The position numbers and the translations under genes were made by a program. From Conexibacter arvalis (GTDB lineage Bacteria; Actinomycetota; Thermoleophilia; Solirubrobacterales; Solirubrobacteraceae), in the NCBI RefSeq assembly GCF_014199525.1, contig NZ_JACHNU010000001.1:1218182-1282181 (forward strand): a stretch of DNA of 64,000 nt. Direction: 5' to 3'. Below are positions 7,843 through 57,512 of this stretch, piece after piece. The notes below the pieces were generated by a model. It did no database searches and was not told the DNA's origin. It was given only the letters and a program-made list of their open reading frames with translations. Numbering within the stretch: position 1 is the stretch's first letter; each line of letters begins with the position of its first letter.

Positions 7843-7941
7843 ACCGCCCCCGAACTGCACCGAACGCCGAGCACACAAAATCGCCCGGCCCCACCGGCCT
7901 CACCGAACCCCAGCGAACCGCTCCGACAGCCCCGCCCAAAT

Positions 7942-8024
7942 CTCGTAATGAAGGGGTCCCCGGTTCGAGTCCGGGTGTCGGCTCCTCAGACGAAAGCCCC
8001 GCTGCGGCGGGGCTTTCGGCGTTT
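7942..8024 (+). repeat. att-like 83-bp direct repeat, copy 2
   Basis: Identical base for base to 1833-1915: the tRNA-Thr 3' half from the anticodon loop, discriminator region and terminator. It lacks the 5' half, so it is not a tRNA gene. It marks the right junction of the first unit and the left junction of the second. Confidence 0.9.
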
Positions 8025-8057
8025 CGGGATAGTCGCGCGACCGCTGCCGTCCGGTGG

Positions 8058-9409: not shown

Positions 9410-9505
9410 GCACTTCCCGACCGCCCCGAACGCCAGCGCCACCGACGGCCCGACACACCGCCGGATCCGAACCCGACGAGATCGCGCCGAACACTCCGTC
9501 CAAAC

Positions 9506-9588
9506 CTCGGAACGAAGGGGTCCCCGGTTCGAGTCCGGGTGTCGGCTCCTCAGACGAGAGCCCCGCTGCGGCGGGGCGTTCGGCGCTT
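9506..9588 (+). repeat. att-like direct repeat, copy 3 (diverged)
   Basis: Aligns end to end with copies 1 and 2. Differences lie in the first ten bases (CTCGGAAC against CTCGTAAT), in the terminator stem (GAGAGCCCC against GAAAGCCCC, GGGGCGTTCG against GGGGCTTTCG) and near the last bases. The T-arm sequence is unchanged. It is the outermost right boundary; ordinary chromosomal genes begin directly after it. Confidence 0.8.
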
Positions 9589-9597
9589 CGCGGCGCG

Positions 9598-31881: not shown

Positions 31882-32529
31882 GTGAGCGCTTCCCCTCCCC
31901 GCGTGCGCGTGCTCGTCGCCGACGACCACCCGCTCTTCCGCGAGGCGATCGTGCGGACGATCCGCGAGCGGCCCGAGTTCGAGCTGGTCGCCGAAGCGGC
32001 CGACGGGCGGGCGGCGCTGGAGGCGATCCGCGACCTGCGCCCGGACGTCGCCGTGATCGACGTGAAGATGCCCGAGCTCGACGGCCTCCAGGTCGTCGCC
32101 GCGATCAGACGCGACGAGCTGGAGACGCGCGCTCTGCTGCTGAGCGCGTACCTCGACAGCGCGATCGTCTTCCAGGCGGTCGGCGCCGGCGCCGCCGGCT
32201 ACCTCTCCAAGGAGGCCGACCGGCGGGTGATCGGCGACGCGATCGCCGCGGTCGCGCGCGGCGAGACCGTGCTCTCGCCGGAGGCGCAGGCCGGGATCGC
32301 CGCCGAGGTTCGCTCGCGCCAGAGCGACGAGCGGCCGCTGCTGACCCCGCGCGAGCGCGAGGTGCTCGCGCACGTCGCGGCCGGGCGCGGCGCGCCGGAG
32401 ATCGCGCGGCTGATCCACCTCAGCCCGGCGACCGTCAAGGGGCATCTGCAGAGCCTCTACGAGAAGCTCGGCGTCTCCGACCGCGCGGCGGCCGTCGCGG
32501 AGGCGATGCGCCGCGGCCTGCTGGAATGA
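31882..32529 (+). CDS. NarL/LuxR-type response regulator
   Basis: A 215-residue regulator. The receiver domain (1-125) has the acidic pair in VADDHPLFREA, phosphoacceptor Asp in VAVIDVKMPELDG and Lys in YLSKEAD. The LuxR-type helix-turn-helix (150-212) reads LTPREREVLAHVAAGRGAPE, then IHLSPATVKGHLQSLYEKLG. GTG start, 13 bases after the GGDEF/EAL gene. The next gene, 76 bases on, is a HisKA_3-type kinase, its natural partner. Confidence 0.95.
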   Translation: MSASPPRVRVLVADDHPLFREAIVRTIRERPEFELVAEAADGRAALEAIRDLRPDVAVIDVKMPELDGLQVVAAIRRDELETRALLLSAYLDSAIVFQAVGAGAAGYLSKEADRRVIGDAIAAVARGETVLSPEAQAGIAAEVRSRQSDERPLLTPREREVLAHVAAGRGAPEIARLIHLSPATVKGHLQSLYEKLGVSDRAAAVAEAMRRGLLE

Positions 32530-32605
32530 GCGGAGCGCGGCGGTCTGCGGCCCTGCCTTCCGCCGGGCGGGCCCGCCCGGCGGCTCGCTCGCCCAGGGGG
32601 ACGCG

Positions 32606-33799
32606 GTGACCGGCGCGCCGCTGCCGCGCGCCCACCGCCGCGAGGCGGTGCGGGTGTGGGCGCTGATCCGCCTGGCGGCGCTGCCGGCGATCTTCCTCGG
32701 CGAGCGGCTGGTCGCGCATCCGAGCCCGCGCAGCGACCCGTTCGTCCCGCTGATGATCGCGGCGACGGTCTATGCGCTGATCGCGTGCGTCGTCGCGTTC
32801 GCGCCGCGGGCGCGGCAGCTCCCGCCGCAGCTGCTGGCGACCTTCGACCTCGCCTTCATCTGGGCGCTGACCTACACCTCCGGCGGCCCCTTCTCGCAGC
32901 TCCGCTACGCCTTCTTCCTGCTGCCGATCGGCGCGGCGCTGCTGCTGCGGCCGCCGCTGACGGCGTGGGCGTCGCTGGGGATCGTCGTCGGCTACGTCGC
33001 GATCGCGCTGCTCTACCCGACCGAGGACGCCGCCGACTTCGAGCTGACGCAGGGGCTGTACCTCGTGTGGATGGGGATCGTCGCGGTGCTGCTGTCGCGC
33101 CTGCTCGCCCGTCGCGCCGACGAGGTCGAGCGGCTCGCCGCCAGCCGCGGCAGGCTCGTCGCGCAGGCGCTCGACGCCGAGGACCGCGAGCGCAGCCGGC
33201 TCGCCGGAGCGCTCCACGACGAGGCGGTCCAGAACCTGCTCGCCGCGCGTCACGAGCTGGCGGCCGGCGGCGACCTCGGCTTCGTCCAGCAGGGGCTCGA
33301 CCGCACGATCGGCCAGCTGCGCGACGCGATCTTCGACCTCCACCCGGCCGCGCTCGACCACGCCGGCCTCGCGGCGGCGCTCGACGCGGTCGCCGAGCAC
33401 GCCGGCAGGCGGGCCGGCTTCGGCTGGCGGGTCGTGGTCGAGCCGGACGCCACCGGCATGCACGACCAGCTGCTGTTCTCGCTGGCGCGCGAGCTGATCC
33501 TCAACGTCGCCGAGCACGCGCGCGCGAGATCGCTGACCGTGCGGGTGCGGCGGACGCCGGCGGAGCTGGTGCTGGAGGTCGCCGACGACGGCGTCGGGCT
33601 CGACCCCGAGCGCCTGCGGGACGCGCCGCTGGCCGGCCACATCGGGCTCGCCTCGGCGACCGAGCGGGTCGAGGCGCTCGACGGGCTGCTGGAGATCGCC
33701 GCCCGTCCCGGCCAGGGGACGCTCGTGCGCGCCCGCATCCCGGTGACCTCGGCCGAGGCGACCCGCCGCGACGCCGGCGCCGCCGCCGACCCATCCTGA
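32606..33799 (+). CDS. Sensor histidine kinase, NarX/DesK (HisKA_3) type
   Basis: A 397-residue membrane kinase. Five or six transmembrane helices (about 20-165, e.g. FVPLMIAATVYALIACVVAF and RYAFFLLPIGAALLLRPPLT) form a sensor with almost no loop outside the membrane. The dimerisation helix has phosphoacceptor His in RSRLAGALHDEAVQNLL, and the ATPase domain ends with LEVADDGVGLD and IGLASATERVEAL. The N box reads NVAEHARARS, a variation on the usual NALKHA. The ligand is unknown, probably a membrane or redox signal. Its partner is the LuxR-type regulator immediately upstream. Confidence 0.92.
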   Translation: MTGAPLPRAHRREAVRVWALIRLAALPAIFLGERLVAHPSPRSDPFVPLMIAATVYALIACVVAFAPRARQLPPQLLATFDLAFIWALTYTSGGPFSQLRYAFFLLPIGAALLLRPPLTAWASLGIVVGYVAIALLYPTEDAADFELTQGLYLVWMGIVAVLLSRLLARRADEVERLAASRGRLVAQALDAEDRERSRLAGALHDEAVQNLLAARHELAAGGDLGFVQQGLDRTIGQLRDAIFDLHPAALDHAGLAAALDAVAEHAGRRAGFGWRVVVEPDATGMHDQLLFSLARELILNVAEHARARSLTVRVRRTPAELVLEVADDGVGLDPERLRDAPLAGHIGLASATERVEALDGLLEIAARPGQGTLVRARIPVTSAEATRRDAGAAADPS

Positions 33800-42004: not shown

Positions 42005-42829
42005 CTACGCCTTCAACTTCTTGCCGGTCGCGAACAGCCAGCTGCTCCAGGCGATCATCACGGCCGCGAGCACGGCCATCACGCCGAGCGACAGCCAGAC
42101 GTTGACGTCGCTGACGCCGAGGAAGCCGTGGCGGATCGCGTCGATGACGAAGAACAGCGGGTTGACGTGGGAGATCTCCTGCCACGGCGACGGCAGCGTC
42201 TCGACCGAGTAGAAGGTGCCGCCGAGGAACGAGAGCGGGACGATCACGATGTTCTGCACGAAGCTGGCGTGGTCCCACGACTGCGCGTAGACGCCGACGA
42301 TCACGCCGAGCGAGGAGAAGATCGTCAGCGCCAGCACGACGGCGAGCGCGAGCACGAGCGGGTCGTGGACGGGCACGTCGACGATCGGCAGCGCCAGCAG
42401 CACGAGCACGAGCGCGATGATCAGCGCCCGTACCGCGCCGCCGAGCGACAGGCCGAGGTTGACCTCCCAGCTCTTCATCGGCGAGGCGAGCACGTCGTTG
42501 ATGTAGCGGTCGAAGCGCGCCTGGAAGACCGACGAGGAGTTGTTCGAGTACGCGGCCTGCACCATCGCCATCGTCACGAGGCCGGGGACGATGAAGACGT
42601 CGTAGTCGACCCCCGCGATCCCGCTGATGCGGCTGCCGAGCGACAGGCCGAAGACGAGGATGAAGAGGAACGAGGAGATGACCGGCGCGGCGATCGTCTG
42701 CTGCCACAGCTTCATCACGCGCGCGACCTCGCGGCCGGTCAGCGCGATCAGGCCGCGGTGGCGGTCGCGCAGGCCGCGCGCCTCCGCCGGCTCTGGGAGA
42801 GCCGGGCTCTGCTGCTCGACGACGCTCAC
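42005..42829 (-). CDS. ABC-2 type transporter permease
   Basis: A 274-residue integral membrane protein with six predicted transmembrane helices, such as ISSFLFILVFGLSLGS, FIVPGLVTMAMVQAAY and LVLALAVVLALTIFSSLGVI. The ABC-2 signature is GGTFYSVETLPSPWQEISHV and the preceding PLSFL. Its GTG start overlaps the stop of the ATPase gene upstream (GTGA), so the two are one drug- or polysaccharide-exporter unit. The C-terminus ends with a helix and GKKLKA. Confidence 0.93.
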   Translation of the reverse strand: MSVVEQQSPALPEPAEARGLRDRHRGLIALTGREVARVMKLWQQTIAAPVISSFLFILVFGLSLGSRISGIAGVDYDVFIVPGLVTMAMVQAAYSNNSSSVFQARFDRYINDVLASPMKSWEVNLGLSLGGAVRALIIALVLVLLALPIVDVPVHDPLVLALAVVLALTIFSSLGVIVGVYAQSWDHASFVQNIVIVPLSFLGGTFYSVETLPSPWQEISHVNPLFFVIDAIRHGFLGVSDVNVWLSLGVMAVLAAVMIAWSSWLFATGKKLKA

Positions 42830-43647
42830 GCCGTCGCTCCGTCGCGGGAAGAACGAGCCCCCTGGGCGAGGTCTTCCGACCGAGTCCAAGGCCTCCGGCC
42901 GCCGGACTCGGCCATCGCCTTGACGTACACGTCGGCGAGCGTGCCGACGCCGTAGTGGGCGCGCAGCCCGTCGGCCGAGTCGCGCGCGAGCAGCCTGCCG
43001 CCGCGGATCAGCGCGATCTCGTTGCACAGCTCCTCGGCCTCTTCGAGGTAGTGCGTCGTCAGCAGGACGGTCGTCCCCTCGCCGTGGAGGCGGCGGATGT
43101 ACTGCCACAGGTCGAGCCGCAGCTCGAAGTCGACGCCCGCGGTCGGCTCGTCGAGGATCAGCAGCGGCGGCTCGTGCATCAGGGCGCGGGCGATCAGCAG
43201 CCGCCGGCGCATGCCGCCCGACAGCATCGGCGCGCGCGTCTGGGCCTTCGAGCTGAGGTCGAAGATCTCCATCATCTCCTTCGCCCGCCGCTTCGCGTGG
43301 GCGCGCTCCATGCCGTAATAGCCGCCGTGGTAGAGCAGCGTCTCCTCGACGTTCAGGAAGCGGTCGAGGTTGATGTCCTGCTCGGCGAGGCCGATCAGGC
43401 GGCGCGCGCCGGGGACGCGGTGGTCGTGGCCGAAGATGCGGATCTCGCCGTCGGTCGTGCGGATCAGGTTGCAGACGGCGCTGATGAGGGTCGTCTTGCC
43501 GGCGCCGTTGGGGCCGAGCAGCCCGAAGAACTCGCCGGCCGGCACGGTCAGGTCGAAGCCCTCCAAGGCCAGGAACCCGTCGTCGTAGCGCTTCGTGAGC
43601 CTCCGCAGCTCGAGCGCCGGCGGGGAAGTGGTTGCGTGATCCATCAC
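42826..43647 (-). CDS. ABC transporter ATPase, DrrA-like
   Basis: A 273-residue ATPase. Walker A is GLLGPNGAGKTTLI, the signature LSGGMRRRLLIARAL, Walker B LLILDEPTAGVDFE and the switch His is in LLTTHYLEEAEEL. The family exports drugs or lipids. Its C-terminal 25 residues (GGRRPWTRSEDLAQGARSSR) are unlike the conserved end and are encoded by a DNA segment related to the repeat after pgsA. It is translationally coupled to the permease. pgsA is divergent from it. Confidence 0.94.
   Translation of the reverse strand: MMDHATTSPPALELRRLTKRYDDGFLALEGFDLTVPAGEFFGLLGPNGAGKTTLISAVCNLIRTTDGEIRIFGHDHRVPGARRLIGLAEQDINLDRFLNVEETLLYHGGYYGMERAHAKRRAKEMMEIFDLSSKAQTRAPMLSGGMRRRLLIARALMHEPPLLILDEPTAGVDFELRLDLWQYIRRLHGEGTTVLLTTHYLEEAEELCNEIALIRGGRLLARDSADGLRAHYGVGTLADVYVKAMAESGGRRPWTRSEDLAQGARSSRDGATA
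42847..42910. repeat. Diverged copy of the two-hairpin repeat inside the ABC ATPase gene
   Basis: GGAAGA (42847-42852) pairs with TCTTCC (42872-42877), and CGAGTCC (42881-42887) with GGACTCG (42904-42910). Between them GAGCC and GGGCGAG match the repeat units at 44277-44504, and the linker CGAC is shared. Stem bases differ from the units in paired fashion. The segment encodes the ATPase C-terminus. Confidence 0.6.
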
Positions 43648-43688
43648 CTTCGAGGCTAGTACACGTGCGCGGTACGCTCCGTGGCCCC

Positions 43689-44279
43689 GTGTTCCCGGTC
43701 AACGTCCCCAACGTCCTGACGCTGCTTCGCATCCTGCTGGTGCCGGTGCTGGTCGTGGCGCTGCTGGGGGAGACGCCCAACGGGGACCTGCTGGCGGCGG
43801 CCGTCTTCGCCGTCGCGTCGCTGACCGACATGCTCGACGGCTACCTCGCCCGCTCGCGCAACGCGATCACGACGTTCGGGAAGCTGATGGACCCGATCGC
43901 CGACAAGCTGCTGGTGATCGCGGCGCTGGTCTCGCTGGTCTCGCTCGGGCGGGTCGCCGCGTGGGTCGCGATGGTCGTGATCGCGCGCGAGTTCGCGGTC
44001 ACCGCGCTGCGGATGGCGGCGACCTCGCAGGGCGTCGTGATCTCGGCCAGCTTCTTCGGGAAGCTGAAGACCTGCTTCCAGATCGCGATGGTGATGGCGC
44101 TGATCCTCGCCGGCAGCGCGCTGTGGGTCGACCTGCTCGTCTACGCGACGGTCGCCGTCACGGTCGCCTCGGGCGCCGACTACTTCTTCGGCCTGCGCCG
44201 GACCCTCGGCGCGCGCGACCGCGCCAAGGCGAAGGCCGCCGAGCGCGCGGCGTCCCGCGGCGGCGCCGAAGGCGCCTGA
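43689..44279 (+). CDS. pgsA: CDP-diacylglycerol-glycerol-3-phosphate 3-phosphatidyltransferase-like protein
   Basis: A 196-residue integral membrane enzyme of phosphatidylglycerol or cardiolipin synthesis. The CDP-alcohol transferase motif D-x2-DG-x2-AR-x9-G-x3-D-x3-D is intact in TDMLDGYLARSRN and FGKLMDPIADK. About five transmembrane helices follow. GTG at 43689 (VNVPNVLTLLR follows) is chosen with a TACGCT box ten bases upstream; a GTG at 43665 is the alternative. The stop lies in the first unit of a three-fold 76-base repeat. Confidence 0.9.
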   Translation: MFPVNVPNVLTLLRILLVPVLVVALLGETPNGDLLAAAVFAVASLTDMLDGYLARSRNAITTFGKLMDPIADKLLVIAALVSLVSLGRVAAWVAMVVIAREFAVTALRMAATSQGVVISASFFGKLKTCFQIAMVMALILAGSALWVDLLVYATVAVTVASGADYFFGLRRTLGARDRAKAKAAERAASRGGAEGA

Positions 44280-44504
44280 GCGCTGGGGAGAAGGAGCCTC
44301 TGGCGAGTTCTCCGGACCGAATCCGAGCCGCTGGGCGAAGGATTCGGCGCCTTGAGCGCTGGGGAGAAGGAGCCTCTGGCGAGTTCTCCCGACCGAATCC
44401 GAGCCGCTAGGCGAAGGATTCGGCGCCTTGAGCGCTGGGGAGAAGGAGCCTCTGGCGAGTTCTCCCGACCGAATCCGAGCCGCTAGGCGAAGGATTCGGC
44501 GCCG
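44277..44504. repeat. Three tandem 76-bp units, each able to form two hairpins
   Basis: Units lie at 44277-44352, 44353-44428 and 44429-44504 and differ at only a few positions. Each has GGAGAA/TTCTCC arms (first unit 44287-44292 and 44308-44313) with an inner GCC-TCT-GGC stem. A second stem is CGAATCC/GGATTCG (44318-44324 and 44340-44346). The first TGA is the pgsA stop, and the last unit encodes the final codons of the convergent gene, so the array fills the whole intergenic space between two convergent genes. It could be a bidirectional terminator that was amplified, or a dispersed REP-like repeat. Confidence 0.85.
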
Positions 44505-45493
44505 TCGAGCCAGGCGCGGCGCGAGACGTGCGTCGGCGAGTGCTCGCCGGTCTCCAGCTCGCGCCGGACCTCACCGAGCAGCCCGAACCGCTCGGCGTCG
44601 ACGTTGTGCTGGTGGATCGTCTCGAGGTTCTTCTGGTGGGCGGAGAAGAAGGTGTCGTCGCCGAGGTGGGCGAACCGGTCGACGACGCCGCGGACCATCT
44701 CGCGCACGCAGTCCTCGACGAAGCGCGGGCGGCGGTGGGCCTTCTCGACGACCGACCCCTCGTCGGTCCGCTTCATCAGCTCGTAGATCTCCGACGACAT
44801 CGAGTTCTCGACGATGTCGAGCAGCGTCTGCGCCGGGACGTCCTCGTCGCTGTGCTCGGGCAGCCCGATGTGGAGCGTGCCGAGGCCGCGCTGGTTGTGG
44901 GTCGCGACCGGGACGTGGTCGAAGATCCGCTCGATCTCGTCCTCGCTGAAGCCGTCGGCGAGCAGCCGCTCGCGCGAGGAGCCCTGGACCAGCTGCTGCG
45001 CGCACGGGCAGGCGGTCATGCCGGCGGCGGCGACGCCGACCAGCCGGCGGGTGCCCTGCTCGGAGGCGACCGCGGAGCCGAACAGCGTGTAGATCTCCTG
45101 CGTCTGGATGCCGGAGACCGGCGCCGGCTTGTGTTCCGGATAGCGCGCCTCGATCGTCACCTCGGCGCGGCGGGCGCCCTGGCGCTCGCGCACGCGCTCG
45201 GCGACGTGTCGGGCGAGCGTCTCGGCGCGGAAGGTCGCCTCGCCGAGGATCACCTCGCCGATCGCGTCGTTGACGACCTCCTCGAAGCGCGACATGTGGG
45301 CGCCCTTCTGGCGGGGCCCGAGGTCGACGTAACATTCGAGTCTCGCGGAGAAGAGCTGTTCCGCGCCATCTTGCTTGATGCGGATGACCTTCTCGACGCC
45401 GGTGACGCCCACGCGCGAGAGGCTGACCTCGAGCGCGGGGAGCTGCGCCTGGACGTCAGGCGCCTGGATGCTTGCGGTGCGCGATTGCGACAT
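44483..45493 (-). CDS. folE2: GTP cyclohydrolase, FolE2/MptA type
   Basis: A 336-residue enzyme of the COG1469 family that opens the GTP ring for folate or pterin synthesis with a metal other than obligate zinc. Motifs: DVQAQLPALEVSLSRVGVTG, the RQKGAHMSRFEE signature, AAGMTACPCAQQ with the metal-binding Cys, and FSAHQKNLETIHQHNVDAER. FolE2 often replaces the zinc enzyme under zinc limitation. No Zur-like site was recognised. The ATG at 45493 is preferred over one 87 bases upstream. Its last codons (AESFA, TAG) lie in the third repeat unit. Confidence 0.92.
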   Translation of the reverse strand: MSQSRTASIQAPDVQAQLPALEVSLSRVGVTGVEKVIRIKQDGAEQLFSARLECYVDLGPRQKGAHMSRFEEVVNDAIGEVILGEATFRAETLARHVAERVRERQGARRAEVTIEARYPEHKPAPVSGIQTQEIYTLFGSAVASEQGTRRLVGVAAAGMTACPCAQQLVQGSSRERLLADGFSEDEIERIFDHVPVATHNQRGLGTLHIGLPEHSDEDVPAQTLLDIVENSMSSEIYELMKRTDEGSVVEKAHRRPRFVEDCVREMVRGVVDRFAHLGDDTFFSAHQKNLETIHQHNVDAERFGLLGEVRRELETGEHSPTHVSRRAWLDGAESFA

Positions 45494-55282: not shown

Positions 55283-56299
55283 TCAGCCGCGCAGGCGTGC
55301 GCGGGCGCGTTCGCTGGCGTCGAGGTAGGCCTTCTCCCACGCCGCGATCTGCTTTCCGATCGTCTGGCCTTTCGCCCACTTCGAGGCGCGCTTCGCGAGC
55401 TTCCGGCGCTCGCGCGCGTGGGTGATCAGGCGATCGAGCGCGGCGTGCCAGCCGTCGTCGGGGACGAGGTGTCCGCCCTCGCGCTCGCCCATCCCCAGGT
55501 ATCCGCCGACCGGCGATGCGAGCCAGGCCAGCCCGGCAGCGCCGTACTCCTTCAGCTTCACGTTCGAACGCGCTTGGTTCCAGGGGATGTCGACGAGCGG
55601 CGCGATCCCGATGTCGGCGCGCGACAGGAACTTCGGGATCTCGAAGAAGTCGATCTGCTTGACGTGCTCGTACCGGTCGCTCTCGAGCCCGAGACCCAGG
55701 CCTATGCTGGAGATGCGCAGGTCGGCATGGGCGTCGAGCAGCCGGTCGAGCGTCTCGCGCAGGCGAAGCGACTGGTAGTCGACCTGGTGCTCGAGGCCGG
55801 CGAGCCAGGCGACGACGACGCCGTCGTGCCGGACCGATGCGGTGCCGGGAAACGCGTCGGGGAGGTAGTTCTCGATCACGCGCACGTCATCCGCGCCGCT
55901 GGCCCTGAACGATGCGGCGAGCCGTTCGCTCGGCGTCGTCACGACGTCGGCGGCGCGGACGATCGAGCCGATCGCACGGGCGACGGCCGCTCCGCGAGCT
56001 CCGCTGTACTTCGCGTACTTGGGGTTCGATCTGGGGACGTTCGTGAGGTCGTCGTCGTTGTCCCAGACGATGCCGACGCCTCGCTCTCGGAGCTGGTCGA
56101 CCAAGCGCTGCATCTCCCCGCCGCGGTAGCGGTGGATGTGAACGACATCGCTCTGAACGATCTCCGAGAGACGGAACAGCGGCTCCCCTCTGCGGTTGTA
56201 GGAGACGTGATGGCCCTGCCCCATCAACGTCGCCATCGGCTGATAGGCGCGGTAGTTCGAATTGACGCCGTCCGGATCGGAGATGTAAGCGATGCGCAC
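55283..56299 (-). CDS. Glycosyltransferase-like protein, paralogue 2 (inverted)
   Basis: A 338-residue protein, VRIAYISDPDGVNSNYRAYQ from the GTG start. VWDNDDDLTNVPRSNPKYAK, VVAWLAGLEHQVDYQSLRLR and SNVKLKEYGAAGLAWLASPV match the other two copies. GTG at 56299 is preferred because GGTGAGAG precedes it and it aligns with the N-termini of its paralogues. It is on the opposite strand, converging on paralogue 1 and divergent from paralogue 3. Such inversions may result from recombination between the copies. Confidence 0.75.
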   Translation of the reverse strand: MRIAYISDPDGVNSNYRAYQPMATLMGQGHHVSYNRRGEPLFRLSEIVQSDVVHIHRYRGGEMQRLVDQLRERGVGIVWDNDDDLTNVPRSNPKYAKYSGARGAAVARAIGSIVRAADVVTTPSERLAASFRASGADDVRVIENYLPDAFPGTASVRHDGVVVAWLAGLEHQVDYQSLRLRETLDRLLDAHADLRISSIGLGLGLESDRYEHVKQIDFFEIPKFLSRADIGIAPLVDIPWNQARSNVKLKEYGAAGLAWLASPVGGYLGMGEREGGHLVPDDGWHAALDRLITHARERRKLAKRASKWAKGQTIGKQIAAWEKAYLDASERARARLRG

Positions 56300-56456: not shown

Positions 56457-57512
56457 GTGAAGATCGCCTATCTCGCCAATCCAGAGAGCCCGAACGGCTG
56501 GTACCGCGGGATAGGGCCGATGTCCGCGCTGAAGCGCAGGGGGCACGAGATCCGGCAGGTCATAGGCCTGGGCGGCAGATTCAAGCCGGAGCTGGTGCAG
56601 GGCTGCGACGTCGTCCACATCCACAGGGAGCACGACCGCCCCACGTTGCAGGTGGCCCGGTACGCCAAGGAGAACGGGATCGCCGTCTGGTGGGACAACG
56701 ACGACGACCTCACCTCGATCCCGAAGAACAACCCGTCGTACAGGAGCAGCTACGGCGGCGCCAAGGGCGCCCGCGCCGCGGTCGAGATACGGAAGATGCT
56801 GGAGGCCGCGGACGTGGTGACGACGCCGAGCCGCCGCCTCGCCGAGCTCTACCGAGAGATGGGGGCCGCGCGCGTCGAGGTGATCGAGAACTACGTCCGC
56901 GACGAAGCCGCCGCGAGCGGCTCGAAACGACCGGCCGACGGCAGAGTCGTCGTCGGCTGGGTCGCAGGCAAGGAGCACCATCTCGACGTCGAGCGTCTGC
57001 CGATACGAGCCGCGCTCGCCGAGCTGCTCGAGCGCCGGCCGGAGGTGGAGATCGTCACCGTCGGCGTCGGGCTTGGCCTGCGCAGCGACCGCTACCGCCA
57101 CATCCCCGCCGTCCGCTTCTTCGACCTGCCGGCGGTGACGCGCGAGTTCGACCTCGGTCTCGCCCCGATCGCCGACATCCCGCTCAACCGCTCACGCTCC
57201 AACGTCAAGCTCAAGGAGTACGCCGCCGCCGGCGTCCCCTGGCTCGCCTCCCCGATAGGCGCGTACGCCGCGCTCGGCAAGCGCGAGGGCGGCCGCCTCG
57301 TCGCCGACGACGACTGGCCCCGCGCCCTCGACGAGCTGATCGACCGCAAACGCGACCGGCGAAAGCTCGCTGGCCGCGCATTCAAATGGGGCAGTGGCGA
57401 GACGGTCTCCGCGAACGTCGGTCGCTGGGAGCGGTTGCTCGGAGACGTCGTGGGTTTGGCGCGACCGGAAAGTGATTCAGTGAGACGTCGCATATCGCCG
57501 CGCCTTCGTTGA
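56457..57512 (+). CDS. Glycosyltransferase-like protein, paralogue 3
   Basis: A 351-residue protein with a GTG start and GGGGAGG seven bases upstream. N-terminus KIAYLANPESPNGWYRGIGP, then VWWDNDDDLTSIPKNNPSYR, VVGWVAGKEHHLDVERLPIR and SNVKLKEYAAAGVPWLASPI. It is the closest copy in length to the other two. The extra C-terminal 15 residues are basic (SVRRRISPRLR). The three genes together probably assemble a variable surface glycan. Confidence 0.75.
   Translation: MKIAYLANPESPNGWYRGIGPMSALKRRGHEIRQVIGLGGRFKPELVQGCDVVHIHREHDRPTLQVARYAKENGIAVWWDNDDDLTSIPKNNPSYRSSYGGAKGARAAVEIRKMLEAADVVTTPSRRLAELYREMGAARVEVIENYVRDEAAASGSKRPADGRVVVGWVAGKEHHLDVERLPIRAALAELLERRPEVEIVTVGVGLGLRSDRYRHIPAVRFFDLPAVTREFDLGLAPIADIPLNRSRSNVKLKEYAAAGVPWLASPIGAYAALGKREGGRLVADDDWPRALDELIDRKRDRRKLAGRAFKWGSGETVSANVGRWERLLGDVVGLARPESDSVRRRISPRLR

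Follow-up and report, generated by a model that had tools for sequence, protein, structure and literature searches.

The 64,000-nucleotide stretch of Conexibacter arvalis DNA analyzed here (the window) carries, at the junction between the ATPase and permease genes of an ABC transporter, a two-hairpin element of 65 nucleotides (nt), within the family's size range of 62 to 66 nt. A covariance model, R1, whose seed was 13 copies from the window's genome, scores this element at 82.8 bits (E = 4.5e-18 in a search of the window). An earlier note, which had only the letters to go on, placed it at positions 42847 to 42910 as a diverged copy of three units found between pgsA and folE2; the element is there, but its end lies one base further on. 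The features of the junction are listed below.

42847 to 42911, minus strand: whole two-hairpin element (minus is the mRNA-sense strand; the stabler fold is on plus)
42847 to 42877, plus strand: hairpin Hb, with outer stem GGAAGA/TCTTCC, internal loop GA/GA and inner stem GCCC/GGGC
42880 to 42911, plus strand: hairpin Ha, with outer stem CCGAGTCC/GGACTCGG, internal loop AA/GCC and inner stem GGCC/GGCC
42830 to 42846, minus strand: 17-nt spacer with a Shine-Dalgarno-like GGAG, from Hb to the permease start (17 nt is the family's modal spacer)
42826 to 42829, minus strand: GTGA, in which the permease start GTG overlaps the ATPase stop TGA (from the reading frames)
42826 to 43644, minus strand: ABC transporter ATPase (gene A; PF00005), whose C-terminal tail ...AESGGRRPWTRSEDLAQGARSSRDGATA is translated through the element
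42005 to 42829, minus strand: ABC-2 permease (gene B; PF01061)

On the plus strand the order is Hb, a 2-nt linker and Ha, and in the mRNA sense it is gene A, Ha, Hb, the spacer with its Shine-Dalgarno sequence, and gene B. The ATPase frame runs through the element to the stop at 42826 to 42828, so the element does encode the ATPase C terminus, as had been proposed, and among the same-genus genomes compared the tail SGGRRPWTRSEDLAQGARSSRDGATA occurs only in the genome of the window (G000). Fold z-scores for this copy are -3.5 (RNA) and -3.8 (DNA) on the plus strand and -2.6 (RNA) and -2.1 (DNA) on the minus strand.

Distribution of the element

The genome-wide search that the earlier note had recommended returned 55 copies at E < 1e-3 in the 5.2-Mb genome G000. 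Most genomes of the genus carry the element, with 4 to 67 copies each (25 to 67 in each of G000, G001, G003 and G004), and G006, of the same genus, gave zero copies in the R1 search; in other genera of the family the element is patchy. It was detected in 28 of 232 genomes of the order Solirubrobacterales, all 28 belonging to one family, and among 397 sampled Actinomycetota only one genome outside that family (G575) had matches. An exact Hb core, sought across about 85,000 species, was found in Conexibacter, Paraconexibacter, one Solirubrobacterales bin and three Rhodobacterales stretches; the last were taken as unrelated, with R1 scores of only 17.8 to 19.1 bits, in two cases confined to Hb. 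The element is nearly restricted to one Solirubrobacterales family. No curated RNA family in Rfam matched it at E up to 1, and we found no literature on such repeats in Conexibacter or Solirubrobacterales.

Tandem arrays with a period of 76 to 77 nt occur in the family, and one further tandem pair in G000 (L049, G000:C1:1359159-1359298) has a 77-nt period with CGATGAGCT bounding each unit. The matches in G575, from another actinobacterial family, form a tandem pair of a related element, identical in sequence (L238, 1501 to 1562 and 1602 to 1663; E = 4e-7), for which transfer, bin contamination and a wider distribution are candidate readings.

Placement at operon junctions and empty sites

The flanks of 123 copies in six genomes show a strong bias in orientation: both neighboring genes run in the sense of the element in 101 cases, the arrangement is convergent (same/antisense) in 10, antisense on both sides in 7 and divergent in 0, with 5 unresolved. 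Gene B most often starts 17 nt past Hb, and its start reads RTGA in 70 and RTGAG in 48 of 90 cases, compared with 15 and 3, respectively, of 45 genes called in the window. The earlier note suggested insertion at gene ends; the sites are more exactly co-directional stop/start junctions, entered in a fixed orientation and with the frame kept.

Nine junctions were located in ten relatives by one concatenated-protein search. In element-free same-genus genomes, the stop of gene A and the start of gene B overlap at RTGA at seven of the nine (accD, folC, ksgA, thrC, aroA, nuoH and the ABC permease). Where the junction is filled, the RTGA is split into a gene A stop and a gene B start, and the element brings a Shine-Dalgarno-like spacer; for example, G003 reads GACGCCGCATGAGCTTC where G000 has GTGCGATGAGCG, the element and then GGAGGAGGCACGATGAGCGGG. 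At the ABC permease junction, G003 has ...AAGGCGATGGCGGCCGCCGCATGAGCG... whereas in G000 the element and its spacer stand ahead of GTGAGCG. The tyrA-aroA junction of G003 (L110, 136 to 165) holds Ha alone without Hb, and G000 has a complete element there. At gyrB-gyrA, the copies of G000 (L035) and G001 (L089) are almost fully alike in spacer and Hb and wholly different in Ha.

A length rule that keeps the frame

Among the 38 copies with DTGA on both sides, the DTGA-to-DTGA distance (N) is 2 mod 3 in 32, with values of 77, 80, 83, 86, 89 or 92. The stop offset, the length of the element and that of the spacer all differ between copies by amounts not divisible by three, and when these part lengths were shuffled among copies the count averaged 13.2 and reached at most 26 in 20,000 trials. 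For an open reading frame (ORF) beginning at the first DTG to end on the TGA that overlaps the start of gene B, N must be 2 mod 3, and the resulting mini-ORF of about 25 to 30 codons connects the gene A stop with the gene B start. In 21 of the other 25 copies, gene A itself continues in frame through the element to the TGA at the gene B overlap.

Stem covariation and folding

The units between pgsA and folE2 have stems GGGAGAA/TTCTCC(C) and CCGAATCC/GGATTCGG and an inner stem GCC/GGC, and the paired differences that the earlier note described at the ABC junction are correct: GGAGAA/TTCTCC becomes GGAAGA/TCTTCC, the second outer stem changes on both sides, and GCC/GGC becomes GCCC/GGGC. Across 53 distinct copies, 93.8% of cells are paired (75.1% when shuffled, at most 49% with partners slid), both sides have changed in 212 cells (58 in shuffles) and the covariation score is 0.474 (0.145 shuffled, at most 0.092 slid); the absolute values are biased towards structure because the alignments were fitted to R1, yet the slid control, which preserves relatedness, is low. 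One seed sequence, from which a base pair had been removed for alignment, was excluded from the pair counts. The covariation test advised in the earlier note therefore came out far above both controls, and the signal was reproduced on 14 matches from orthologous loci of relatives. Orthologous rplQ-truA copies illustrate it, with paired changes TCTGACCC/GGGTCAGA, TCTGATCC/GGATCAGA and TCTGACGC/GCGTCAGA.

The strand complementary to the mRNA forms the stabler fold in 111 of 120 copies. In a count intended to tell the functional strand, G-U mismatches outnumber A-C mismatches by 28 to 15, but the model was itself built on one strand. The GA/GA internal loop of Hb is present in 48 of the 53 copies, with no repair to Watson-Crick pairs. 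We also considered whether each Ha arm is a copy of the target, which fits copies where the gene A stop falls within the arm (stop offset 0 to +2); however, the arms have a common consensus, and covariation is also seen where the stop lies beyond the arm, which rules against the idea. Two rplQ-truA copies (L108 in G003, 339 to 433, and L124 in G004, 170 to 263) contain a further hairpin, about 30 nt long and in the opposite sense, nested within the Hb apical loop, which looks like the insertion of one hairpin unit into another.

Probable origin and spread of the element

We consider it likely that these copies represent a dispersed, non-autonomous insertion element, of the size of a miniature inverted-repeat transposable element, that occupies stop/start junctions within operons. 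The copies are dispersed and mostly of one orientation, their sites occur empty in relatives, their lengths follow the frame rule, and their stems covary while the mismatches are conserved; transposition, the persistence of translational coupling and a role of the hairpins in mobility are what we infer. The inserted unit would comprise the two hairpins (Ha then Hb in the mRNA sense) and a spacer of about 17 nt with its Shine-Dalgarno sequence, and would enter at RTGA overlaps, after which one DTGA would terminate gene A and a second would start gene B. The element's frame would then provide either a mini-ORF from the first DTG to the gene B overlap or an in-frame extension of gene A, as in the ABC ATPase. 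Because ribosomes could still terminate on the start codon of gene B, coupling would survive the insertion, which would do little harm. Recognition as folded single-stranded DNA would be suited by the best-folding complementary strand and the conserved tandem G.A mismatches.

Several observations weigh against this reading. The mini-ORF frame is open in 31 of 32 copies, against 27 and 29 for the remaining frames, a difference so small that we dropped openness as evidence, and the mini-ORF derives its support solely from the length rule. The copies are related to each other, and nominal P values are therefore overstated. The empty gyrB-gyrA and rplQ-truA junctions are short gaps with no RTGA overlap. 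A small tree places G000 closer to certain other species than to G001, but it is G000 and G001 that share the gyrA and accD insertions, which those species lack, a pattern that needs loss, transfer or parallel insertion. Finally, dispersed copies within a genome reach at most about 93% pairwise identity, and a search that covered Y1 transposases found neither a transposase nor an autonomous relative, which leaves present-day mobility unproven.

The earlier note took the paired stem changes as a sign of selection on structure, DNA or RNA. The conservation of pairing agrees with this, but paired changes alone are no proof of selection: they also arise when imperfect palindromes are corrected by template switching, and hairpins maintained in this way could be functionless once inserted. 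The outer stems of Ha are nearly free in sequence yet paired, and the gyrB-gyrA copies of G000 and G001 differ by whole arms, as such correction would produce; against it, Hb retains its sequence as well as its pairing, and correction should erase the GA/GA mismatches. It is these uncorrected mismatches that carry the argument for structural constraint, and we regard pure template-switch correction as unlikely. We find it quite unlikely, too, that the element is a resident mRNA regulatory element (an attenuator, RNase site or stability hairpin for differential expression) placed by function rather than by insertion. Its orientation fixed relative to transcription, its position just ahead of the Shine-Dalgarno sequence of gene B and the preservation of its structure at orthologous junctions such as rplQ-truA would all suit a regulator, but close species differ in whether a given junction is filled, and their empty sites are clean; moreover, the host genes are unrelated, tandem arrays occur, no Rfam family matches and the mRNA strand is the one with the less stable fold.

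A repetitive extragenic palindromic (REP) sequence mobilized by a REP-associated tyrosine transposase (RAYT, of the Y1 type) would likewise be a short, imperfect palindrome, dispersed and paired as in REP sequences and bacterial interspersed mosaic elements (BIMEs), which also often lie between operon genes. However, PF01797 had no match in G000, G001, G003, G004, G005, G036 or G016, with control genomes positive, and the frame rule, the fixed orientation and the RTGA junctions are foreign to REP sequences; nor was the REP-type GTAG tetranucleotide seen at the hairpin foot in the aligned copies, and we judge this origin highly improbable. Chance similarity or the coding bias of a high-GC genome has nothing beyond the high GC content to recommend it and can be practically dismissed in view of the strongly scoring genome-wide set, its absence from nearly all 397 Actinomycetota sampled and the covariation controls.

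Comparison with known repeats

The closest parallel to the insertion element that we favor is the mycobacterial interspersed repetitive unit (MIRU), a typing marker of tuberculosis bacteria whose target was reportedly given by Supply et al. in 1997 as DTGA, with the orientation of the operon; to our knowledge, the mechanism of MIRU mobility is unknown. In a published account, MIRUs are mobile repeats whose insertion sites are start codons and whose internal ORF is coupled by a 4-nt overlap (PMC12548453), and units of 77 and 53 bp lie between senX3 and regX3 (PMC4213456). The DTGA start/stop insertion of MIRUs in operons is matched here by the RTGA overlap at seven of nine empty junctions, their mini-ORF overlapping its neighbors in a unit of 2 mod 3 by 32 of 38 copies against a permutation mean of 13.2, and their operon-sense orientation by a ratio of 101 to 7. 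Both form tandem arrays, and one window copy lies between two-component genes, like the senX3-regX3 units; MIRU copies in L248 and L251 have N = 53, also 2 mod 3.

In contrast, there is no sequence similarity between the two. The MIRU core pattern, GCAGAGCGCAGCGATGAGGAGGAG, is absent from G000, and in the phylum sample only genus g103, which we take to be Mycobacterium, has copies; R1 had zero matches among the genomes sampled from this genus. Folding the MIRU copies did not give two hairpins, and C-terminal extension of gene A in frame is common in the present element, which is MIRU-like in design and not a MIRU by sequence. In-frame incorporation into coding genes recalls, in design, the Rickettsia palindromic elements, palindromic repeats that join protein-coding genes in frame, but the present element sits at gene ends and junctions rather than within genes. 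By analogy only, its variable stems and conserved mismatches on one folded strand resemble integron attC sites, in which stem sequence varies and mismatches or extrahelical bases are conserved on one folded strand, but here there is no array and no sign of an integrase.

The MIRU rules on junction, orientation and frame recur, in a distant actinobacterial lineage, in an element unrelated by sequence, which suggests that insertion at stop/start overlaps with retained coupling is a repeatable strategy. More tentatively, the element may represent a second, independently evolved class that spreads via operon stop/start overlaps, with a folded single DNA strand recognized by an enzyme, an RTGA target and a mini-ORF serving as a ribosome relay that makes the insertion tolerable to operon genes. 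MIRUs would then exemplify a general kind that has arisen convergently. The question can be tested beyond mycobacteria on core-gene junctions, of which dozens occur naturally in filled and empty form (for example gyrB-gyrA, nuoG-nuoH and valS-folC), and element-encoded tails alter the annotation of gene ends in these genomes.

Other copies and features in the window

The four copies listed in the earlier note all hold, and a fifth, degenerate copy that it did not list brings the window total to 5. The remaining copies and their host genes are as follows.

44286 to 44347, minus strand: tandem unit 1, between convergent pgsA and folE2 (R1 search)
44362 to 44423, minus strand: tandem unit 2 of the pgsA-folE2 array, which has a 76-nt period (R1 search)
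44438 to 44499, minus strand: tandem unit 3 of the array, with the folE2 stop at 44483 inside it (R1 search and reading frame)
43665 to 44279, plus strand: pgsA-like CDP-alcohol phosphatidyltransferase gene (PF01066)
44483 to 45493, minus strand: folE2, gene A for the tandem units (PF02649)
32531 to 32594, plus strand: fifth, degenerate copy, at a response-regulator/histidine-kinase junction (34.7 bits)

The third unit encodes the end of folE2, as the earlier note had read it. The fifth copy is flanked by the response-regulator stop (ATGA, 32526 to 32529) and the histidine-kinase start (GTGA at 32606); its N is 80, and its mini-ORF runs from ATGAGC to the TGA overlapping GTGA, so the frame rule is obeyed outside the tested set as well. 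Elsewhere in the window, positions 55358 to 55616 and 57149 to 57407 are 72% complementary over 259 nt, an inverted repeat that probably consists of paralogous genes facing opposite ways, and direct repeats of 145 nt at 1773 to 1917, 7882 to 8026 and 9446 to 9590 have 74 to 81% identity to the reference copy.
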